A DNA stretch of 13,219 nucleotides from a bacterium (GTDB taxonomy: Bacteria; AUK180). Positions within the stretch are counted from its first letter, which is position 1. Each line of letters begins with the position of its first letter. The stretch spans positions 1 to 13,219 of the forward strand of contig JAUXGM010000056.1 in NCBI GenBank assembly GCA_030622125.1. The letters are read 5' to 3'. A model generated the notes under the pieces. That model did no database searches. It worked only from the letters and a program-made list of their open reading frames with translations, and was not told where the DNA came from. This document shows, one piece after another, positions 4,239-13,095 of the stretch. Position numbers and translations under genes: made by a program.

Positions 4239-4267
4239 ATTATAATAATTAATTGATTTTTTTTCAA
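4239..4267 (-). promoter_or_regulatory. sigma70-like promoter for rmlD, probably leaderless
   Basis: On the minus strand TTGAAA (4267-4262), a 17-bp spacer and TATAAT (4244-4239) form a near-consensus promoter. The -35 box overlaps the TGA stop of the histidine kinase. The ATG of rmlD begins 5 nt after TATAAT, so a start site 6-8 nt past the -10 box would fall on the start codon. AT-rich sequence raises the chance of a random TATAAT, but the spacing and the -35 match argue for a real site. Confidence 0.6.
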
Positions 4268-5874
4268 CCGGGTTCCGGTGCTAATGGAATGACAAAAGAG
4301 AATTTGCTTCCTTCTCCATATTTGCTTTCTACAAGAAATCTACCCTTATGCAATGTAATTATCTGTCTTGATATCGACAGACCGAGCCCGGTGCCGCCCT
4401 TTTTTCTTGTCAGTTTGTTGTCTACCTGATAGAAAAGATCCCATATCTTGTCAAGATCCTCCGCTTTTATTCCGCTTCCCGTGTCTATAACCGAAACCTG
4501 TAAATATTTTCCGCCGGTTGATGGTTTTTTATTATATTTCATGCTGTTTGTCTGCATTACTTCAAGTGTAATGGAACCTTTCTCCGTAAATTTCACGGCA
4601 TTCCCAATAAGATTAGTAATAACTTGTTTTATTCGAAGCGAATCAAAAAAACCTGCTGTTACAAAATAACGGTATTGAGTTATAAATTTCAAGTTTTTGC
4701 TCTTTATAAGCGGAATTGTCTCTTTTTCTATTTTTTCCATGAACTCTTTAATATTTTGTTCTTCTAATTTAATGGAAAACTTTCTTAGATCAACCTTTGA
4801 AATATCAATAATATCATTTATAAGTTTTAACAGATCTTTTGCCGATACCTCGACCGTAGTTAAACCTTCCATCTGTTTTTTATTGATATTTCCAAGTATC
4901 TTCGTTTGGATCAATTGCGTATATCCGATAATTGATGTTAGCGGCGTTCTTAATTCGTGAGATATCATAGAAACAAATTGGGTCTTCATTCTATTCGCTG
5001 TTTCCGCTTCATTTTTTGCTTTTGAAAGTTCTGTCATGGTTTCATTTAATGTTTCGTTGATCTCTTTATAGTTTCTATTTATGACCTCAAGTTCGGTAAC
5101 GGTGGCGCTCAATGTTTGATTGCTTACATTCAATTCATCCGTTTTTAAATTTACCTGTTTTTCGAGTTCTTCGTTCCAATTTTTTAGTTTCTGTGAATAA
5201 TCATGGATGTCTTTTCTCATTTTTTCAAAGCTTCGGGCAAGCATTCCTATCTCATCATTACGATTAATCTCTATTTTCTTTGTAAAATTTGTTTTGCCGA
5301 GAGTTGCTATTTCATTAGCAAGATGAATGATCGGCATAGTAAGCGAATCTATAAAAAAGTAGGCAAGGATAAAAACAATAAAACCGATTAAAATCAAGAA
5401 TCCGACGAAATAATTTCCATATTTACTAATCTCATCTTTCATTTTTTTTTGGCATAAGGTTATTGTAATATAGTTGTTCTTCTCTTGATTTATCGAAAAA
5501 CCGGGTCCTCCCAAACTGCTTTCGCCAATTATCTTTTCTTTTAATACGATATCTTTGTGCGTGCATTTTTCCGAATGATTCTCATAAATATAAAACACTT
5601 CTTCCCCTTTATATATCTCTATTTTTGAAATTACCTTGTTTTTCCTTAATTCCGCTAATGTATTTTCTACTGTTTTCTTATCATTTGCCCACAACGGAAA
5701 GTCAAGGGTATTACTTACATTTTTTAATGTGAATTTCATACTCGATACATATTCTTCCTTGATAATATTGAAACTGAATTTAAGAAAAAATACTGAGATA
5801 AATATAAATGTGATAAGCAGTATTGGAATAAGATAAAAGATAAGATGGGTTTTTATAGAAACAAATTTTTTCAC
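4264..5874 (-). CDS. membrane sensor histidine kinase (HAMP-HisKA-HATPase)
   Basis: A 536-residue inner-membrane sensor kinase. Two membrane segments (about 11-35 and 154-176) bracket a periplasmic domain of about 115 residues. That domain contains a DFPLWAND stretch (58-65), like the small Cache/CHASE-type sensors of other kinases. A HAMP linker follows (about 177-228), then a coiled coil (about 228-295) and HisKA with H306 in SHELRTP. The ATPase domain has N425 (NLIGNAVKFT), DTGSG (464-468) and GGTGLGLS (493-500). All catalytic motifs look intact. There is no receiver domain, so it needs a separate response regulator; the two at 8691-10633 in the same run are natural candidates. The start is GTG, overlapping the previous stop as GTGA, with no close Shine-Dalgarno, so it probably depends on translational coupling. 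The ligand is unknown, but the periplasmic binding-like protein just upstream could present it. Confidence 0.93.
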   Translation of the reverse strand: MKKFVSIKTHLIFYLIPILLITFIFISVFFLKFSFNIIKEEYVSSMKFTLKNVSNTLDFPLWANDKKTVENTLAELRKNKVISKIEIYKGEEVFYIYENHSEKCTHKDIVLKEKIIGESSLGGPGFSINQEKNNYITITLCQKKMKDEISKYGNYFVGFLILIGFIVFILAYFFIDSLTMPIIHLANEIATLGKTNFTKKIEINRNDEIGMLARSFEKMRKDIHDYSQKLKNWNEELEKQVNLKTDELNVSNQTLSATVTELEVINRNYKEINETLNETMTELSKAKNEAETANRMKTQFVSMISHELRTPLTSIIGYTQLIQTKILGNINKKQMEGLTTVEVSAKDLLKLINDIIDISKVDLRKFSIKLEEQNIKEFMEKIEKETIPLIKSKNLKFITQYRYFVTAGFFDSLRIKQVITNLIGNAVKFTEKGSITLEVMQTNSMKYNKKPSTGGKYLQVSVIDTGSGIKAEDLDKIWDLFYQVDNKLTRKKGGTGLGLSISRQIITLHKGRFLVESKYGEGSKFSFVIPLAPEPG

Positions 5875-6737
5875 TTTAGAAATGTTATATTTCCTTCTGC
5901 CGTATTTATAGAAAAATTAAAACTTTTAATAATGTGGTAATTCACAAAGACCTTATAGTTTTTTATCTTAATGTTGTTTACTTCTCCTTTTTTTATACCT
6001 CTTTTTACCGCTTTTACGGTCTCAATGCCCATAGAATAGTAATCGGGAATAATTGATAGGTATGCTCCGCATTTAACAAATCCCTTCGTTAATCCGATAA
6101 AAGGAATTCCTCTTTTGTATGTTAATTTTAGTATGTTATAGGTATTTTCCGGTGTGTAGATGCTGCTGTCATAAACCGCCATTACAACGTAATCTTTGGG
6201 AATATTAAGGTTCAATAGAACCTTTCCTAGATCTTTCTTTATAATCTTAAATTGCAGGTCTATTCCTTCTTTTCTCATAGTTCTCACATAGTCATCACTA
6301 TTTTTTTCATACCATTGCCGGCTGCATGGAATAATTACTCCTTTTATGTCCGAAAGAATTGCCTTCAGGATAAGTATTTTTCTATAACTATCTATCTTTG
6401 GTTCAACATAAATTATTCTTTCGGGTTCAAAAGAATATTTCTCAATATCATATACCACTAAGGCGACAACTCTTATATTCTCCGTATTTTCCTTTAAATA
6501 ATTGAGGGCTTTTTCTCCGATGGCAAAACAGATATTTTCTTTTTTATCAACAATCTCCAATTTATCGTTATCCATTCTCAAATCAATAATTTTATAACTC
6601 TTTAATTCTTTTTTTATCCCTTCCGTTACCTCATTAAAGAGATCATAATCAAAGGATGAAACGAGATAGATATTTGATCCATAAGCCGTAATAAACAATA
6701 AAACAAAAATAAGGACTGATACTTTTTTAAAATTCAT
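5871..6737 (-). CDS. periplasmic substrate-binding-like protein (ABC_sub_bind type)
   Basis: A 288-residue exported protein with an N-terminal signal peptide (KK then a hydrophobic stretch, about 6-18, with likely cleavage near AYGSN). The remainder fits a periplasmic binding protein fold of the ABC_sub_bind (PF04392) type. The clearest parts are the second lobe, with YKRGIPFIGL (207-216), GAYLSIIPDYYSMGIETV (224-241), and the ending KVFVNYHIIKSF (262-273). There is no ABC permease or ATPase in the window, so it is an orphan. It sits between a TonB-dependent receptor and a histidine kinase, overlapping them by 11 bp (ATGAATTTTAA) and 4 bp (GTGA). This suggests a co-receptor that delivers a ligand signal to the kinase rather than an uptake-only component. 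Ligand unknown. It has no lipobox cysteine, so it is probably soluble in the periplasm. No strong Shine-Dalgarno precedes the ATG. Confidence 0.72.
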   Translation of the reverse strand: MNFKKVSVLIFVLLFITAYGSNIYLVSSFDYDLFNEVTEGIKKELKSYKIIDLRMDNDKLEIVDKKENICFAIGEKALNYLKENTENIRVVALVVYDIEKYSFEPERIIYVEPKIDSYRKILILKAILSDIKGVIIPCSRQWYEKNSDDYVRTMRKEGIDLQFKIIKKDLGKVLLNLNIPKDYVVMAVYDSSIYTPENTYNILKLTYKRGIPFIGLTKGFVKCGAYLSIIPDYYSMGIETVKAVKRGIKKGEVNNIKIKNYKVFVNYHIIKSFNFSINTAEGNITFLK

Positions 6738-8694
6738 AGTTTAATTCCACGCCGTAGGTTCTTCCCGGCATCCTCAGATCATACAGGTATGAAGATTTAG
6801 CTATCTTGTCTACATAGTACATCGTGTAGTACGATGTATCAAAAATGTTTTTGGCATAAGTAGATATGCCGACCTTTAAGCCCGAATATGTCAGATTAAC
6901 ATCTGTTGTAATATACGGTTTACCGTCCTCCTTTTCTTCGTTCCATTCCTTTCGCGGTCTCTTTCCAACATACATATTTGAAAGAGAAAGATTAAGATTC
7001 TCTAATATGGAAATACCCATCCACTGGACGATCTTCAGACTCGGATAACCGTATTGTATAAGATCTTCTACCTTTGCCTGCTGATAGGTAGATGAAACAG
7101 CAAGATCAAGTTTCTTATTATTGTATTCGAACAGTCCCGTTATTCCATATATCTTTTCCTCACCCATATTGTTATACTGAGCATTCCCTCCACCAATATC
7201 TATCTTTTCAATTAGTTTCTCAAGTCTCTGGTGAAAAAACTCCATTTTGAGACAAAGATTTTTTGGTGTAATTTTCATACCGAACTTATAGGAATTGATC
7301 GTTTCGGGTTCAAGATCCGGATTTGCCTCCGACCATGCATCGGTTTTCATAATCAACTCTCTCGGTGTTGGAGATCTAAAAGCACGACTGTAATTAAAAT
7401 TAAACGAAAGCTTATTTATCTTATATCCGATATTGAACTTGGGCGATAAAAAACCCTTGAAAAAATAATTATGATCATATCTAAGGGAACCGATAAATCT
7501 CACATTCTTTATATTTCTCGTTATCATCTGAAAAAATACCCCGTAGTTATCATAAACTATCGGATCAATGTAATAATTAGATGGTTCAAGGGGTTCGGAA
7601 GAGTGATTTATATAGTGATAATCCTTAATATCCCGAAGGTTATTAACATCAAAGTCAAATCCTAATAGTGTATTTGTGTATTCAAAGTTCTTATCAATCT
7701 TTAACTCTCCGAATATCTTTGAAGATAGTTTTTTTGCTTCTGTAAATTGTTCGTATTCGGGCTTCATGGAAGTTGTTGAATCATAAACCGTATAGCCCCA
7801 GATACCTTTTCTGTCAAAATTCTGATAATTCAGAGTAATGCTTCCATTCAGAGTATTATCAATTTCATGATCAATTCCTGCGGTTATAAATATATCGTTA
7901 TATATATAGCCGTAACTTCTGTTCTGAATTATCTCATTCCAACTACATATTTCATTTTTCAGTTCAAAAAATCTGTAATTGATATTATAGATCCTGAGAA
8001 AAAATCCCTTGTATTTAAAGAGTGATCTGAAAAATAGGTTCTCTCTCGGATTGTTTTCCAGCACATTTGGTTTACCCTTGTATGTTTTGTCAATCCCGAT
8101 TCCATCATCATCCAATTTTGAAATCGTAATGCCGTATTCAATATCATTCTTTTTACCAAAGATTGAAATTGTCGGCTTAAAAGATCCACCGGATCCGGCA
8201 TTTACTTTTAAATTATTTGGAAAATCCTCTTTTTCCACGATGTTTATATATCCGGCAAATGTTCCCGAACCGTATAAAGAAGAATATCCTCCGAAAGCAA
8301 CCTCTATCCTTTCAATATTCTCAAACGGGAAATACTCATCAACTATACTTTTGTTATATAATGGATCATAGATTGGAATACCATTAACAAGAAGGAGAAA
8401 TCGCTCATTGTGACAGTTTAGAATGCCATTTGTAAAAATCTGGGTTTCACCTGTTCTATATCTTGATTTGTACATTCTTGAGATAAAAGGAATTAAAGAT
8501 GCTACCGTATTGATGTTATTCTTCTGTAAAAATTCCTCAGAGAATATAATTATATCCTCTCCAAGTTCTCCGTATTCCATTTTGATCTTATATGAGGATT
8601 CTATAAGCATTTTATCAAGTCTTAAAAAATAATCCTCTTCGCAAAAAGTAACAACCATCAAAAAAACCGCAAAAAATGAAAATACTTTTTTCAT
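6727..8694 (-). CDS. TonB-dependent outer-membrane receptor
   Basis: A 655-residue outer-membrane beta-barrel receptor that would take up a ligand using TonB/ExbB/ExbD energy. A signal peptide spans about 1-18. The plug domain is about 45-155, with LLLVNGIPIYDP (100-111), NIERIEVAFGGYSSLYGSG (126-144) and GYINIVEKE (148-156), all typical plug features. The rest is a barrel with many aromatic, alternating strands. It ends in RMPGRTYGVELNYEF, with the terminal Phe expected for outer-membrane assembly. No clear TonB box is visible. The substrate cannot be read from sequence, and no TonB or ExbBD gene is nearby. The ATG follows GGGAGGG with a 3-nt spacing, and ATGA overlaps the stop of the preceding regulator gene. 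Its place between a regulator gene and a periplasmic sensor-like gene suggests ligand-dependent signalling. Confidence 0.93.
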   Translation of the reverse strand: MKKVFSFFAVFLMVVTFCEEDYFLRLDKMLIESSYKIKMEYGELGEDIIIFSEEFLQKNNINTVASLIPFISRMYKSRYRTGETQIFTNGILNCHNERFLLLVNGIPIYDPLYNKSIVDEYFPFENIERIEVAFGGYSSLYGSGTFAGYINIVEKEDFPNNLKVNAGSGGSFKPTISIFGKKNDIEYGITISKLDDDGIGIDKTYKGKPNVLENNPRENLFFRSLFKYKGFFLRIYNINYRFFELKNEICSWNEIIQNRSYGYIYNDIFITAGIDHEIDNTLNGSITLNYQNFDRKGIWGYTVYDSTTSMKPEYEQFTEAKKLSSKIFGELKIDKNFEYTNTLLGFDFDVNNLRDIKDYHYINHSSEPLEPSNYYIDPIVYDNYGVFFQMITRNIKNVRFIGSLRYDHNYFFKGFLSPKFNIGYKINKLSFNFNYSRAFRSPTPRELIMKTDAWSEANPDLEPETINSYKFGMKITPKNLCLKMEFFHQRLEKLIEKIDIGGGNAQYNNMGEEKIYGITGLFEYNNKKLDLAVSSTYQQAKVEDLIQYGYPSLKIVQWMGISILENLNLSLSNMYVGKRPRKEWNEEKEDGKPYITTDVNLTYSGLKVGISTYAKNIFDTSYYTMYYVDKIAKSSYLYDLRMPGRTYGVELNYEF

Positions 8695-10259
8695 AATCCC
8701 TCCCTAAAATATTTTACTCCGATATTTTTTTGTATTTCTCGATTATTATTGTTCCCGACTATTTTGACATTTAACTTGTTTTGAAGGTTTATAAGAGATT
8801 TGACAAGATCCTGCTTTATATAATTCTTTTCTATATCTTCTGTTAAAAGTTGGTGTAAAAAAACATAGTCGGGTTGGATTGCCATGATCGTGTCTAAATT
8901 GGATGCTATCGTTCCATAATTAAATATTGCTATTTTATGACCAAGATATTTCAACATCTCAATTTGCTCTCTGTAAGATAAAATGTTATTTGCTACATCT
9001 ATATCATCAAATGTAAAGATATAATTCTTAGGTAGTTTTTTTTCTCTTATAGTAAATATCATATCTTCGTTTACCGCTAATTTATGTATTGGAATAAAGA
9101 AATTTGCCTCTCCCGTAAAATTTGTCATCATCTTTTCGATAATAGCAATGTACATTTCTCTTATCTTTTTCGCATCGTTGCAAAATCTAAATATCTCGAT
9201 TATTTTCGTGCCTTCCACTATAAATTTTACGGCATACCCTATTTTTTCGTTGTCAATTGATTTTATCTCCTCATTTTTTAGATCAAAGTTTCCCGATATT
9301 ACGGAAAGGCGTATATATTCGTAGTATTTATCTTTTTCGTCGGCGATCTTTTTAAGGAGAGTGAAAATATTTCTATATATCTCTCTTTCAAATCTAACAT
9401 TTTTGTCCTTTTCAAATTGATGTCCCGTAATATAAAAAAAGTTTTGATATTCCGAAAAATTCGGGAAATTTTTCCTTGTTGTTTCTATTAAATTCTTTTT
9501 TAATTTCTCAATATTGAATTGACCTTCCTGATCTTTTTGTGAAAAGAACAGAATAAAATCTCCTGCATATACCTTTCTTACGCTGATCAATGTTTCGGCA
9601 CAGTTTTTATCAACAAATTCATTTATACTTTTAGAAATCTTATAGATGTAATCGTCTATTATTTTCCAATTAAATATTTTTTCGTATTTTAATATTTCAT
9701 CCGTATCTATATATACTATATAAAAACCCTTATCATATTTTTTCCTTAGATTTTCAAAAAGAGCTGGTAGAATGGGAAGCTTTGTCAATTTATCGATTGA
9801 CGCTCCTTTTTCCTTTTCGAACTCGGTTGCAATTTTTTTATATTCGCTATTTACTTTTTTTAAGGTTTCTGAAATCGTTCCTTTACTTATGATATTTTTT
9901 ATTCTGATATATAATTCTTCAAGATTAAACGGTTTTTTTATATAATCGTCCGCACCGAGTGAAAGTCCTTTAATTACACTTTCCGGGGTAGAAAGAGCGG
10001 TTAGCATAAGTATCGGGATCATAGAAAAAACCTTATGGTTTCTCAGATGTTCGCAAACCTCAAACCCGTTTTTTCCGGGCATCATAATATCCAGTATTAT
10101 TATATCGGGAATATTCTTTTTATTTTCGATCAGATCAAGAGCTTCTTCACCATCTTCCGCTTCTATGATCTCAAAACCTTTTGCCGTAAGATATTTATTT
10201 AAAACCAACCGGATATTTTCATCATCATCTGCAACCATTATTGTTCTTTTTTTTACCAT
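8691..10259 (-). CDS. response regulator with degenerate GGDEF-like and EAL-like regions
   Basis: A 522-residue cytoplasmic regulator. The receiver domain (about 5-125) is complete: acidic D11-D13, phospho-acceptor D57 (LDIMMPG), T87 and K109. A helical linker leads to a GGDEF-like region starting at DKLTKLPILPALFENL (156-171), but the signature itself reads YAGDF (231-235), so cyclase activity is unlikely. The C-terminal part follows the EAL fold. IPIHKL (389-394) stands where VNLS is usual, YIFTFDDID (413-421) where EITES is usual, and LGHKIAIFNYG (439-449) where G..IA.DDFG is usual; the end is FREGL instead of QGYL. No EAL or DDFG metal ligands survive. It is therefore probably a phosphorylation-controlled binding or scaffold protein, perhaps for c-di-GMP or a partner. 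GGAGGG precedes the ATG, 2 bp after the previous stop. The calls for the degenerate regions rest on reading alignment by eye. Confidence 0.82.
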   Translation of the reverse strand: MVKKRTIMVADDDENIRLVLNKYLTAKGFEIIEAEDGEEALDLIENKKNIPDIIILDIMMPGKNGFEVCEHLRNHKVFSMIPILMLTALSTPESVIKGLSLGADDYIKKPFNLEELYIRIKNIISKGTISETLKKVNSEYKKIATEFEKEKGASIDKLTKLPILPALFENLRKKYDKGFYIVYIDTDEILKYEKIFNWKIIDDYIYKISKSINEFVDKNCAETLISVRKVYAGDFILFFSQKDQEGQFNIEKLKKNLIETTRKNFPNFSEYQNFFYITGHQFEKDKNVRFEREIYRNIFTLLKKIADEKDKYYEYIRLSVISGNFDLKNEEIKSIDNEKIGYAVKFIVEGTKIIEIFRFCNDAKKIREMYIAIIEKMMTNFTGEANFFIPIHKLAVNEDMIFTIREKKLPKNYIFTFDDIDVANNILSYREQIEMLKYLGHKIAIFNYGTIASNLDTIMAIQPDYVFLHQLLTEDIEKNYIKQDLVKSLINLQNKLNVKIVGNNNNREIQKNIGVKYFREGL

Positions 10260-10261
10260 AT

Positions 10262-10633
10262 TTACCCTCCTAAATATTCCTTACAAACCTCAATCAATTG
10301 TTTTAAATTAAACGGCTTTGTTAAATAATAATTTGCTCCAAGCGTAATGCCTTTTTTGATATCCTCCTTTGAAACATAAGCTGAGGAAATGATTACCGGT
10401 ATTTTAAGATTAAATTTCCGTCTTATTTTTTTTAATACCTCAAATCCATTGATCCCTTCAAGCCCTATGTCAAGAAAGATTAATCCGATCTTTTTATTGT
10501 TCTCTTCTATATATTTGCATGCTGCCAATCCATTTTCAAAGATATTTTTCTTATTCCTAAAATCACTCAGGGTTAATGTTATTAATTTTTGAATTTTTTC
10601 ATCATCCTCAATAATCAAGATTTCCTTATTCAT
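10262..10633 (-). CDS. single-domain CheY-like response regulator
   Basis: A 123-residue stand-alone receiver domain. It has the acidic pair E9-D10-D11, phospho-acceptor D55 (FLDIGLEG), S84 in the switch position usually held by Thr/Ser, and K106 in LTKPF, so phosphorylation should be possible. There is no DNA-binding or other output domain, so it must act by protein contact, as a phosphate sink, or within a phosphorelay. The kinase in the same run (H306) is the likely donor. ATGA overlaps the macro-domain stop by 4 bp, with GAGGA 5 nt upstream. The gene for the larger receiver protein follows after 2 bp. It is not demonstrably a chemotaxis CheY, because no chemotaxis genes are present. Confidence 0.93.
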
Positions 10634-11151
10634 TGTGTTCCTCTATTTTTTATTTCCGTTTGGTAAGCATTATAAGTAATATTATCATAACATACAAAGA
10701 AGACATTTGTTATTTCTTTATTTTGTTTTAATTCATCTTTTACTGCCTTTACTGCTATTGGAACCGCTTGTTCTACCGGAAATCTATATGCCCCGGTACT
10801 TATTGAAGGAAATGCAATAGTTTTAATATTTCGTTTTTTTGCTTCTCTAAAAACAGATATGTAGCATTTCCTTAAAGAGTCTTTTTCGTTTTGGGCTCCA
10901 CCATGCCAAATCGGACCAACCGTATGAATTACATATTTTGCCGGTAAGTCATATCCCTTTGTTGTTATTGCTTCTCCGGTTTCACAACCTTTTAACTTTT
11001 TGCATTCATCCAATAATTTCGAACCGGCGGCTCTATGGATGGCACCATCCACACCGCCGCCGCCAAGTAATGAATTGTTTGCGGCATTAACTACGGCATC
11101 ACATTTTTGCTTCGTAATATCTCCTAAAATGGTTTTTATCCTTTCCAACAT
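10630..11151 (-). CDS. macro-domain ADP-ribose-binding protein (MacroD/YmdB type)
   Basis: A 173-residue single macro domain of the MacroD/YmdB type. Family members hydrolyse O-acetyl-ADP-ribose and can remove ADP-ribose from acidic residues. Visible motifs are GDIT (10-13), [20 protein letters not shown] (20-39) with N22, N25 and D35, YVIHTVGP (73-80), and the phosphate-binding loop ISTGAYRFP (117-125). Length matches the family, and no signal peptide is present, so it should be cytoplasmic. It is the first gene of the signalling run and overlaps the CheY-like gene by 4 bp. The ATG is preceded by AAGG at 7 nt and by a near-consensus promoter. Why such an enzyme heads a two-component and receptor operon is not clear; it may simply be a conserved passenger. 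Confidence 0.93.
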
Positions 11152-11217: not shown

Positions 11218-13095
11218 ATGAAAAGGAAATTTTCCGTAATTATCATACTGTTTATCTTCACTGTTTTGCTCTTCTTTCCCATTCGTTTTTTTGATATCCT
11301 TGATCTAAAATGGTGGGATTTTGTTCAACACTCCTTTCCGGATAAATGGTCTTCAAAGGTTTTCATTGTTTCGATTGATGATGATGCTCTCAACGAATAC
11401 GGTAGATGGCCATTTGACAGAAAGGTGTTATCGAATTTAATTGACAAAATATCCGACCATAATCCAAAATTGATAGGACTGGATATTTTATTCCCTGAGA
11501 GATCAAACAGTGATGAAACATTTTCATCTGCCATATTTTACAGCGGAAATGTTGTCGGCTCGGTTTCCGTTGATGAAAAGCAACCGGTATCGAAAAACAA
11601 TAATGAATTGAACTTTTTTCCTTCCTTTAAGGGAGATGCTTACTTTAAAATCGTCTCTTTTCTCGGCAATGTTGAGAGTATATCCGATTCTTTTTTGTCT
11701 CGAGGACATATTCATATATTAAATGATTTTGACGGAACAATCCGACATTATCACCCGTTCTTTATATATAAGGAAAGGCTGATTCCGGGAATGGCATTTG
11801 AATTATACAGACTATATAAGGGTTATGAACTTTCAACATTGAAGATCATGAAAAATAAGATTCTAATTGGCGAAGATACAATACCAATTGATCATAATCG
11901 AAGGAATTTTATTCACTTCTTAAAAAATAGTGGAGATATCCCTCAAATAAAAATGACCGATATTATGACCGATAATGTAAAGTATGACCTTAATAATAAA
12001 ATAATTCTTGTTGGTGTTACGGCAACCGGGGCTCATGATTATAGGGTTTCACCCATTTCTCAATCTACCCCGGGAGTAGAGATAGAGGCAACAATTACCA
12101 ATAATTACCTCACTGGAAATTTGATCAAACCTCATAGAACCGTAAACTATATTTTGATCATATTTTTTATGTGGATATTAAGCATTTTTTATATTTTTTT
12201 CAATCGCAAATTTAATTTGGCGAGATCGCTTTATTCCCTTTTATTTCTTATTTTTATCTTTTTCTCCTTTCATTTTCTGTTTTTTTTACATTTCAAAATG
12301 GTATTTCATTTTCTTCTTCCTCTTCTTTTATATCTTTTTATTTTCGGATATCTTCTTGCATATCATTACCTTGTTTCATCCAAAGGTGCACGAAAATTAA
12401 AAATGATACTTTCTCATTACCTTTCTCCGAATATTATGAGTGAACTTCTTGAAAATCCGGAACTTGTGAAATTAGGAGGAAGTAAAGTAAATGTTAGTGT
12501 TCTTTTCGGTGATGTTGCCGGTTTTACCTCTTTTTCAGAGAATCATTCTCCCGAAGAGGTCGTAACATACTTAAATGAGATACTAACAATTCTTACACGA
12601 AGTGTTTTTCAATATAACGGTACACTTGATAAATATATCGGGGATTGTATAATGGCTTTTTGGGGAGCTCCTCTTCCGGATGTAAATAGTGCGGAGCATT
12701 GTGTTCTTGCTGCGATAAATATGATTGAAAATATTAATAAATTCAATGAAACGACACAGGATAAATTCTATATCGGTGTCGGCATTAATTCGGGCGCTGC
12801 GGTAATCGGCAATATGGGATCTGAAACCGTATACGATTATACCGCAATGGGAGATACGGTGAATACCGCTTCAAGAATGGAGGGCGTTACAAGAAATTTG
12901 AATAAAGCACTCGTAATAACAAGATTTACATACAATGAATTACCCGACTATCTAATGACAAGATTTGAAAAATATAATGAAAAAGTTATAGTAAAAGGAA
13001 AGGAAAAAGGCATTGAAGTTTATACACTCAAAGATCATCCGTTAAAAAAGAAGAAGGTAATAAGGAAAAAGAAGAGGTTCGAGGCTAGAGGTTAG
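11218..13095 (+). CDS. CHASE2-domain class III adenylate cyclase
   Basis: A 625-residue membrane cyclase that should make cAMP from ATP. A hydrophobic N-terminus (about 7-21) anchors an extracytoplasmic CHASE2 sensor domain (about 25-300; VFIVSIDDDALNEYGRWP and LIGLDILFPE are typical). Three membrane segments follow (about 308-328, 337-358, 361-385). The cytoplasmic catalytic domain (about 422-600) has metal ligands D432 (LFGDVAGFTSFS) and D476 (YIGDCIMAFWG), the substrate Lys K472, T542 in YTAMGDTVN, and N549 and R553. A Thr at 542, where class IIIa enzymes have Asp, is typical of class IIIb cyclases, some of which respond to bicarbonate. All catalytic residues are present. The C-terminus is a basic Lys/Arg tail whose last residues (RFEARG) are encoded by a DNA tandem repeat. 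It is transcribed alone and divergently from the macro-domain operon; no Shine-Dalgarno is visible. The CHASE2 ligand is unknown. Confidence 0.94.
   Translation: MKRKFSVIIILFIFTVLLFFPIRFFDILDLKWWDFVQHSFPDKWSSKVFIVSIDDDALNEYGRWPFDRKVLSNLIDKISDHNPKLIGLDILFPERSNSDETFSSAIFYSGNVVGSVSVDEKQPVSKNNNELNFFPSFKGDAYFKIVSFLGNVESISDSFLSRGHIHILNDFDGTIRHYHPFFIYKERLIPGMAFELYRLYKGYELSTLKIMKNKILIGEDTIPIDHNRRNFIHFLKNSGDIPQIKMTDIMTDNVKYDLNNKIILVGVTATGAHDYRVSPISQSTPGVEIEATITNNYLTGNLIKPHRTVNYILIIFFMWILSIFYIFFNRKFNLARSLYSLLFLIFIFFSFHFLFFLHFKMVFHFLLPLLLYLFIFGYLLAYHYLVSSKGARKLKMILSHYLSPNIMSELLENPELVKLGGSKVNVSVLFGDVAGFTSFSENHSPEEVVTYLNEILTILTRSVFQYNGTLDKYIGDCIMAFWGAPLPDVNSAEHCVLAAINMIENINKFNETTQDKFYIGVGINSGAAVIGNMGSETVYDYTAMGDTVNTASRMEGVTRNLNKALVITRFTYNELPDYLMTRFEKYNEKVIVKGKEKGIEVYTLKDHPLKKKKVIRKKKRFEARG

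Follow-up and report, generated by a model that had tools for sequence, protein, structure and literature searches.

One operon in the analysed stretch of DNA (the window, 13,219 nucleotides, C123:1-13219, a contig of a 2.08-Mb draft genome that is 96% complete) probably encodes an envelope-spanning ligand sensor, in which a signal would pass from a TonB-dependent receptor (TBDR) to a periplasmic solute-binding protein (SBP), a sensor histidine kinase and two receiver proteins, the longer of which would act through degenerate GGDEF and EAL domains as a protein-contact adaptor. The unusual features of this cassette are the TBDR within it, the preserved dead GGDEF-EAL protein and the fixed company of a macrodomain gene and an adenylate cyclase gene.

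Organisation and conservation of the operon

The minus strand of the window carries six tightly spaced genes, beginning with a 173-aa MacroD-like macrodomain protein (10630..11151; PF01661, E 1.5e-46; NCBIfam NF001664 over cut-off). This is followed by a single-domain response regulator consisting of REC only, with D55 (10262..10633; PF00072, E 2e-23); a 522-aa response regulator combining REC (D57) with degenerate GGDEF and degenerate EAL domains (8691..10259; PF00072, E 6e-29; PF00563, E 5e-12); the outer-membrane TBDR (6727..8694; PF00593, E 3e-30; PF07715, E 3e-11); the periplasmic solute-binding-like protein of the PF04392 (ABC_sub_bind) family (5871..6737; PF04392, E 8e-11); and the histidine kinase (4264..5874; GTG start), with profile matches to a weak CHASE8-like periplasmic domain, HAMP, HisKA (H306) and HATPase_c. 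The macrodomain and receiver genes overlap by 4 bp, the receiver and the longer response protein are separated by a 2-bp gap, and the remaining junctions are overlaps of 4 bp (response protein/TBDR), 11 bp (TBDR/SBP) and 4 bp (SBP/kinase). The initial annotation had described the last five genes as a run joined by overlaps or a 2-bp gap, which the coordinates and profile families confirm; all five are present, but its list was incomplete, since it left out the macrodomain gene at the head of the run.

The best promoter-like site is a candidate sigma-70-type operon promoter, TTGACA-17-TACAAT (11197-11169, minus strand; an 11/12 consensus match), about 18 bp upstream of the macrodomain gene. A second 11/12 match (4267-4239) precedes rmlD, which immediately follows the kinase gene, and the two sites, as consensus matches only, would fit one six-gene transcript.

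The family comprises the window genome and four others, in all of which a protein search located the SBP; a single-sequence SBP scan of genome contigs gave no match, and an alignment scan recovered the four. Conservation counts refer to these five genomes. The order receiver, longer response protein, TBDR, SBP, kinase, whose conservation the initial annotation had proposed as a check, is kept in all five, unchanged in each of the four other genomes, where the 11-nt TBDR/SBP and 4-nt SBP/kinase overlaps are also identical. The TBDR is conserved throughout, and H306, D55 and D57 are invariant. Three window genes beyond the kinase (rmlD, relA and pgeF) do not adjoin the block in any of the four relatives, and its edges are therefore sharp. 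Chance gene order was rejected, since the flanks vary among genomes while the block stays.

The macrodomain gene heads the operon in four of the five genomes and is absent from L022, where 238 bp lie between the receiver and cyclase genes (L022:13280-13517); the congener L021 keeps the gene. On the other side of the intergenic region lies a gene that the earlier neighbourhood reading had overlooked, encoding a CHASE2-class III adenylate cyclase (11218..13095, plus strand; PF05226, E 3e-46; PF00211, E 3e-28), which is adjacent and divergent in all five genomes. Five cNMP-binding domains encoded in the genome could be readers of cAMP from this cyclase.

Two genomes of the same class and another family (L024 and L025) have the SBP gene preceding a hybrid kinase, and L024 additionally has a receiver and a GGDEF-like/EAL protein upstream of the SBP, keeping REC, EAL, SBP and kinase together. 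No TBDR was seen at either locus, where contigs end close by, and this counts against the favoured sensor route.

The envelope proteins and the proposed route of the signal

The SBP has a hydrophobic, signal-peptide-like N-terminal stretch with no lipobox Cys, and scores 42.1 bits against the PF04392 profile (cut-off 25.9) over residues 61-277; for two of its four orthologues in the family, the PF04392 match falls below E 1e-3. Its AlphaFold2 model is confident and two-lobed (pLDDT 87), with CD0873 as the best fold match (6hnj; Z 23.0, rmsd 3.4 over 266 residues), followed by the TrpX-type proteins 3lkv (Z 19.4, rmsd 6.4 over 266) and 3lft, which holds L-Trp (Z 19.1, rmsd 6.0 over 262). LuxP (1zhh, crystallised with LuxQ) and XylFII (5xsd, with LytS) are lower-listed matches. 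The SBP is thus a PF04392 member with, according to the model, the fold of the aromatic-amino-acid binders TrpX and CD0873; identity to solved proteins is 13-17%, so that no ligand can be named.

The TBDR matches both plug (PF07715) and beta-barrel (PF00593) profiles, and the cell has a TonB system. The initial annotation had reported no TonB/ExbBD, which is true of the window but not of the genome, where three ExbD matches, three TonB_C matches over the cut-off and about seven plug domains were found. The kinase carries the expected His in its HisKA-HATPase core, and the receivers carry the expected Asp.

In the favoured route, a molecule scarce in the surroundings would enter the periplasm through the TBDR and be bound there by the PF04392 protein, which, loaded or empty, would dock on the kinase at its small periplasmic domain (residues about 36-153). 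Docking is suggested because the overlapping SBP-sensor gene pair is conserved and SBP-kinase precedents exist. Through HAMP the change would reach the HisKA/ATPase core, and this core would control whether the lone receiver is phosphorylated at D55 and the longer protein at D57, both invariant residues. Co-transcription does not prove that both receivers belong to this kinase, which counts against this route.

YfiBNR provides a related precedent, in which an outer-membrane activator and a periplasmic repressor control YfiN, a CHASE8-HAMP transducer (PMC8294551). A relay of this type, with the periplasmic protein inhibiting a CHASE8-like receptor, the outer-membrane protein relieving the inhibition and no small ligand taking part, would occupy the same three layers and accords with weak CHASE8 matches at E <= 0.1 in three of the five family kinases and at E 1e-5 in the sensor of a locus outside the family (L092). 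It is nevertheless improbable here: the match of the window kinase, at 18.4 bits, is under the Pfam cut-off of 27, a plug-bearing TBDR stands in the outer membrane in place of an OmpA-like lipoprotein, and the periplasmic protein is modelled with a full two-lobe binder fold.

A response protein without catalytic motifs

The initial annotation had counted two receiver proteins lacking DNA-binding domains; both do contain REC, and no DNA-binding domain is among the profile matches of either, but the degenerate GGDEF and EAL domains of the longer one had been missed. Motifs were aligned with intact EAL proteins, namely paralogues in the same genome (L159 and L160), proteins of relatives (L162-L165) and the L024 locus. 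Compared with these, EAL.RG is changed to KFIVEG, EITE to FDDI, DD.G to FNYG and K.D to FLH, and the EGIE segment is deleted; the GGDEF motif position reads YAGDF or GASDF, departing from GG[DE]EF. The EAL catalytic motifs are replaced or deleted in all five family genomes, the replacing letters varying slightly, unlike the paralogues L159 and L160 and the EAL neighbour in L024, which are intact. These changes show domains that, judged by their motifs, would be unable to make or cut c-di-GMP by canonical chemistry, and an active c-di-GMP enzyme was ruled out by the loss of every catalytic motif. The output had earlier been proposed to be protein-protein or nucleotide based; with all motifs lost, the canonical nucleotide-enzyme route is effectively excluded for this protein, and we infer that protein contact remains.

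A pseudogene in decay was also ruled out, given a dN/dS of about 0.01 and a frame intact in five genomes. In a comparison of two species of one genus, where substitutions are few and values rough, dN/dS was 0.010 for the response protein and 0.013 for its pseudo-EAL part, the latter value indicating strong purifying selection, compared with 0.035 for the kinase, 0.070 for the lone receiver, 0.080 for the SBP and 0.107 for the TBDR. Change is fastest at the cell surface and slowest in the dead enzyme, as would be expected if ligand recognition diversifies while the partner of the pseudo-enzyme is fixed.

The genome encodes seven GGDEF domains, two intact EAL proteins and two PilZ proteins, so that a c-di-GMP network is available for the response protein to act on. 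The pseudo-GGDEF/EAL region is probably a protein-binding adaptor, perhaps acting on the true GGDEF/EAL proteins of the same cell. Alternatively, it could still bind c-di-GMP or another nucleotide as a LapD/FimX-like receptor under phosphorylation control. The structural model of the protein (pLDDT 79) is closest to the GGDEF-EAL module of LapD (6pwk_B; Z 21.6, rmsd 10.3 over 346 residues, the large deviation probably arising because the domain arrangement differs), other GGDEF-EAL proteins being among the closest solved folds and single EAL domains aligning to within about 3 A across some 200 residues. In addition, c-di-GMP machinery is encoded in the cell, and an intact EAL occupies the matching place in L024. 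Such a receptor is unlikely, however, as none of the EAL.R, N, E, DD, K.D and EG motifs survives in any of the five genomes, each being substituted or lost, whereas LapD and FimX retain part of the ligand-binding set.

PF04392 genes in other genomes and comparison with known systems

A PF04392 search of 386 diverse genomes gave 127 positives; about 120 further regions around such genes were retrieved, and the genes nearby were sorted by type using profiles made for this analysis. In the resulting census of 125 loci outside the window's family, which includes many short contigs and several loci from some genomes and, being drawn from best-scoring matches, favours ABC-type members, a sensor (kinase, chemoreceptor or GGDEF protein) without permease was present in the same run at 48 loci, a permease without sensor at 17 (SBP-permease-ATPase), a TBDR with a permease at one further locus, sensor and permease together at one, and neither at 58. 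Sensor and permease tend not to occur together (Fisher p 7e-4). In 45 loci the sensor gene immediately follows that of the SBP, and in one it lies directly upstream. TBDRs associate with sensors (p 0.011, with a home-made TBDR profile that misses some outer-membrane proteins, such as that of L148), and 11 loci have a TBDR immediately before and a sensor immediately after the SBP.

These counts bear on the possibility that the operon is an uptake system, in which the TBDR and SBP import a nutrient with the help of an ABC permease, or some other transporter, whose gene lies elsewhere, while the two-component proteins do no more than regulate or accompany it. Most TBDRs serve uptake, the structurally solved relatives in PF04392, such as TrpX, are binders of ABC importers, and the 17 SBP-permease-ATPase loci are of this kind. 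Such an uptake system is nonetheless unlikely, given that no ABC permease or ATPase gene occurs in the operon in any of the five family genomes, that permease and sensor come close to mutual exclusion in the census, and that both response proteins lack a DNA-binding domain through which transport genes could be controlled. The initial annotation had named two observations that would speak against its sensing interpretation, a gene order not conserved in relatives and an SBP consistently paired with ABC permeases instead of kinases. Outside ABC loci, PF04392 genes pair with sensors and not permeases; as the order is also conserved, neither was found, and the sensing interpretation survives with good support.

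The census sensors comprise HAMP kinases, hybrid kinases, chemoreceptors and GGDEF proteins. Pfam confirms HAMP-chemoreceptors and HAMP-HisKA kinases, some of the latter also bearing PAS, GAF or receiver domains, and weak hits to sCache_4 or CHASE8 fall in the periplasmic segments. Sigma-54-type regulators follow the kinase in L028, L091 and L096. The variety of sensors and downstream regulators indicates that outputs are exchangeable and that the TBDR-SBP-sensor triad is general. The system is therefore not the singular, undescribed one first supposed: distant bacteria have such triads too, in which the sensor is a kinase, hybrid kinase or chemoreceptor, and elsewhere DNA-binding regulators accompany them.

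Most census triads have no REC/EAL gene alongside. Together with the faster evolution of the TBDR and SBP relative to the receivers, this could reflect two independent units on one transcript, a TBDR-SBP-kinase unit with its regulator elsewhere and a macro-REC-REC/EAL unit answering to another kinase, but the unvarying, closely packed arrangement of all five genes in five genomes, and the similar grouping of REC, EAL, SBP and kinase in L024, leave this division only a slim chance.

Several other arrangements were observed. PF04392 proteins adjoin chemoreceptors in eight loci (L032, L080, L083, L084, L098, L099, L109 and L139), several with TBDR and CheA/CheB, as in L032:456-8311, which reads TBDR-SBP-chemoreceptor-CheA-CheB; these are likely an outer-membrane-receptor-linked chemosensory cluster. 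At least five tandem PF04392 genes lie on one contig in L060, and no permease was identified among the genes of that run. A phosphoglucomutase/phosphomannomutase gene directly follows the PF04392 gene in two genomes of one family (L094:4497-6876 and L103:5785-8185), a polyketide-cyclase-like lipid-transport protein precedes it in L141 and L153, with a Peripla_BP_4 protein following in L141, and an MtrB/PioB-like outer-membrane barrel, not a TBDR, precedes it in L148:3679-5838.

Tentatively, PF04392 proteins in diderms could largely be periplasmic co-receptors of a modular sensing class (outer-membrane receptor, binder and HAMP transducer, with kinase, hybrid kinase, Che array or GGDEF outputs), for which the output here would be a phosphorylation-controlled pseudo-GGDEF-EAL adaptor without nucleotide chemistry. 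If so, many genes named 'ABC transporter substrate-binding protein' by homology would be signalling receptors, and the TBDR-binder-transducer cassette would be a second outer-membrane-to-cytoplasm signal route, besides the anti-sigma-factor route. The preserved dead GGDEF-EAL protein offers a clean case for the role of such domains without c-di-GMP chemistry. In a literature search for PF04392 or COG2984 with TBDRs and kinases, which covered subscription literature poorly and so is weak evidence, the triad was undescribed.

Activation of kinases, chemoreceptors, GGDEF/EAL proteins and Ser/Thr kinases by ligand-loaded SBPs is an established mechanism (PMC9602780), and with a core module this widespread the operon is a variant of SBP-dependent two-component sensing, not a new category. 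LuxP-LuxQ, XylFII-LytS and BctC-BctE likewise pair a periplasmic binder with a kinase, but the present system differs in its PF04392 SBP family, same-operon TBDR and pseudo-enzyme response regulator. TrpX and CD0873 share Pfam family and fold with the window SBP, which differs from them in having no adjoining ABC permease or ATPase gene and in its 13-17% identity. The three-layer arrangement of YfiBNR is shared and the sensor domain gives a CHASE8 match below the cut-off, but beyond the difference in outer-membrane protein the binder does not have the YfiR fold and the kinase is not a diguanylate cyclase. Both output domains are degenerate in LapD and FimX, as they are here, and LapD is the top fold match; in contrast to these receptors, the window protein is soluble and REC-linked, and even its ligand-contact motifs are lost.
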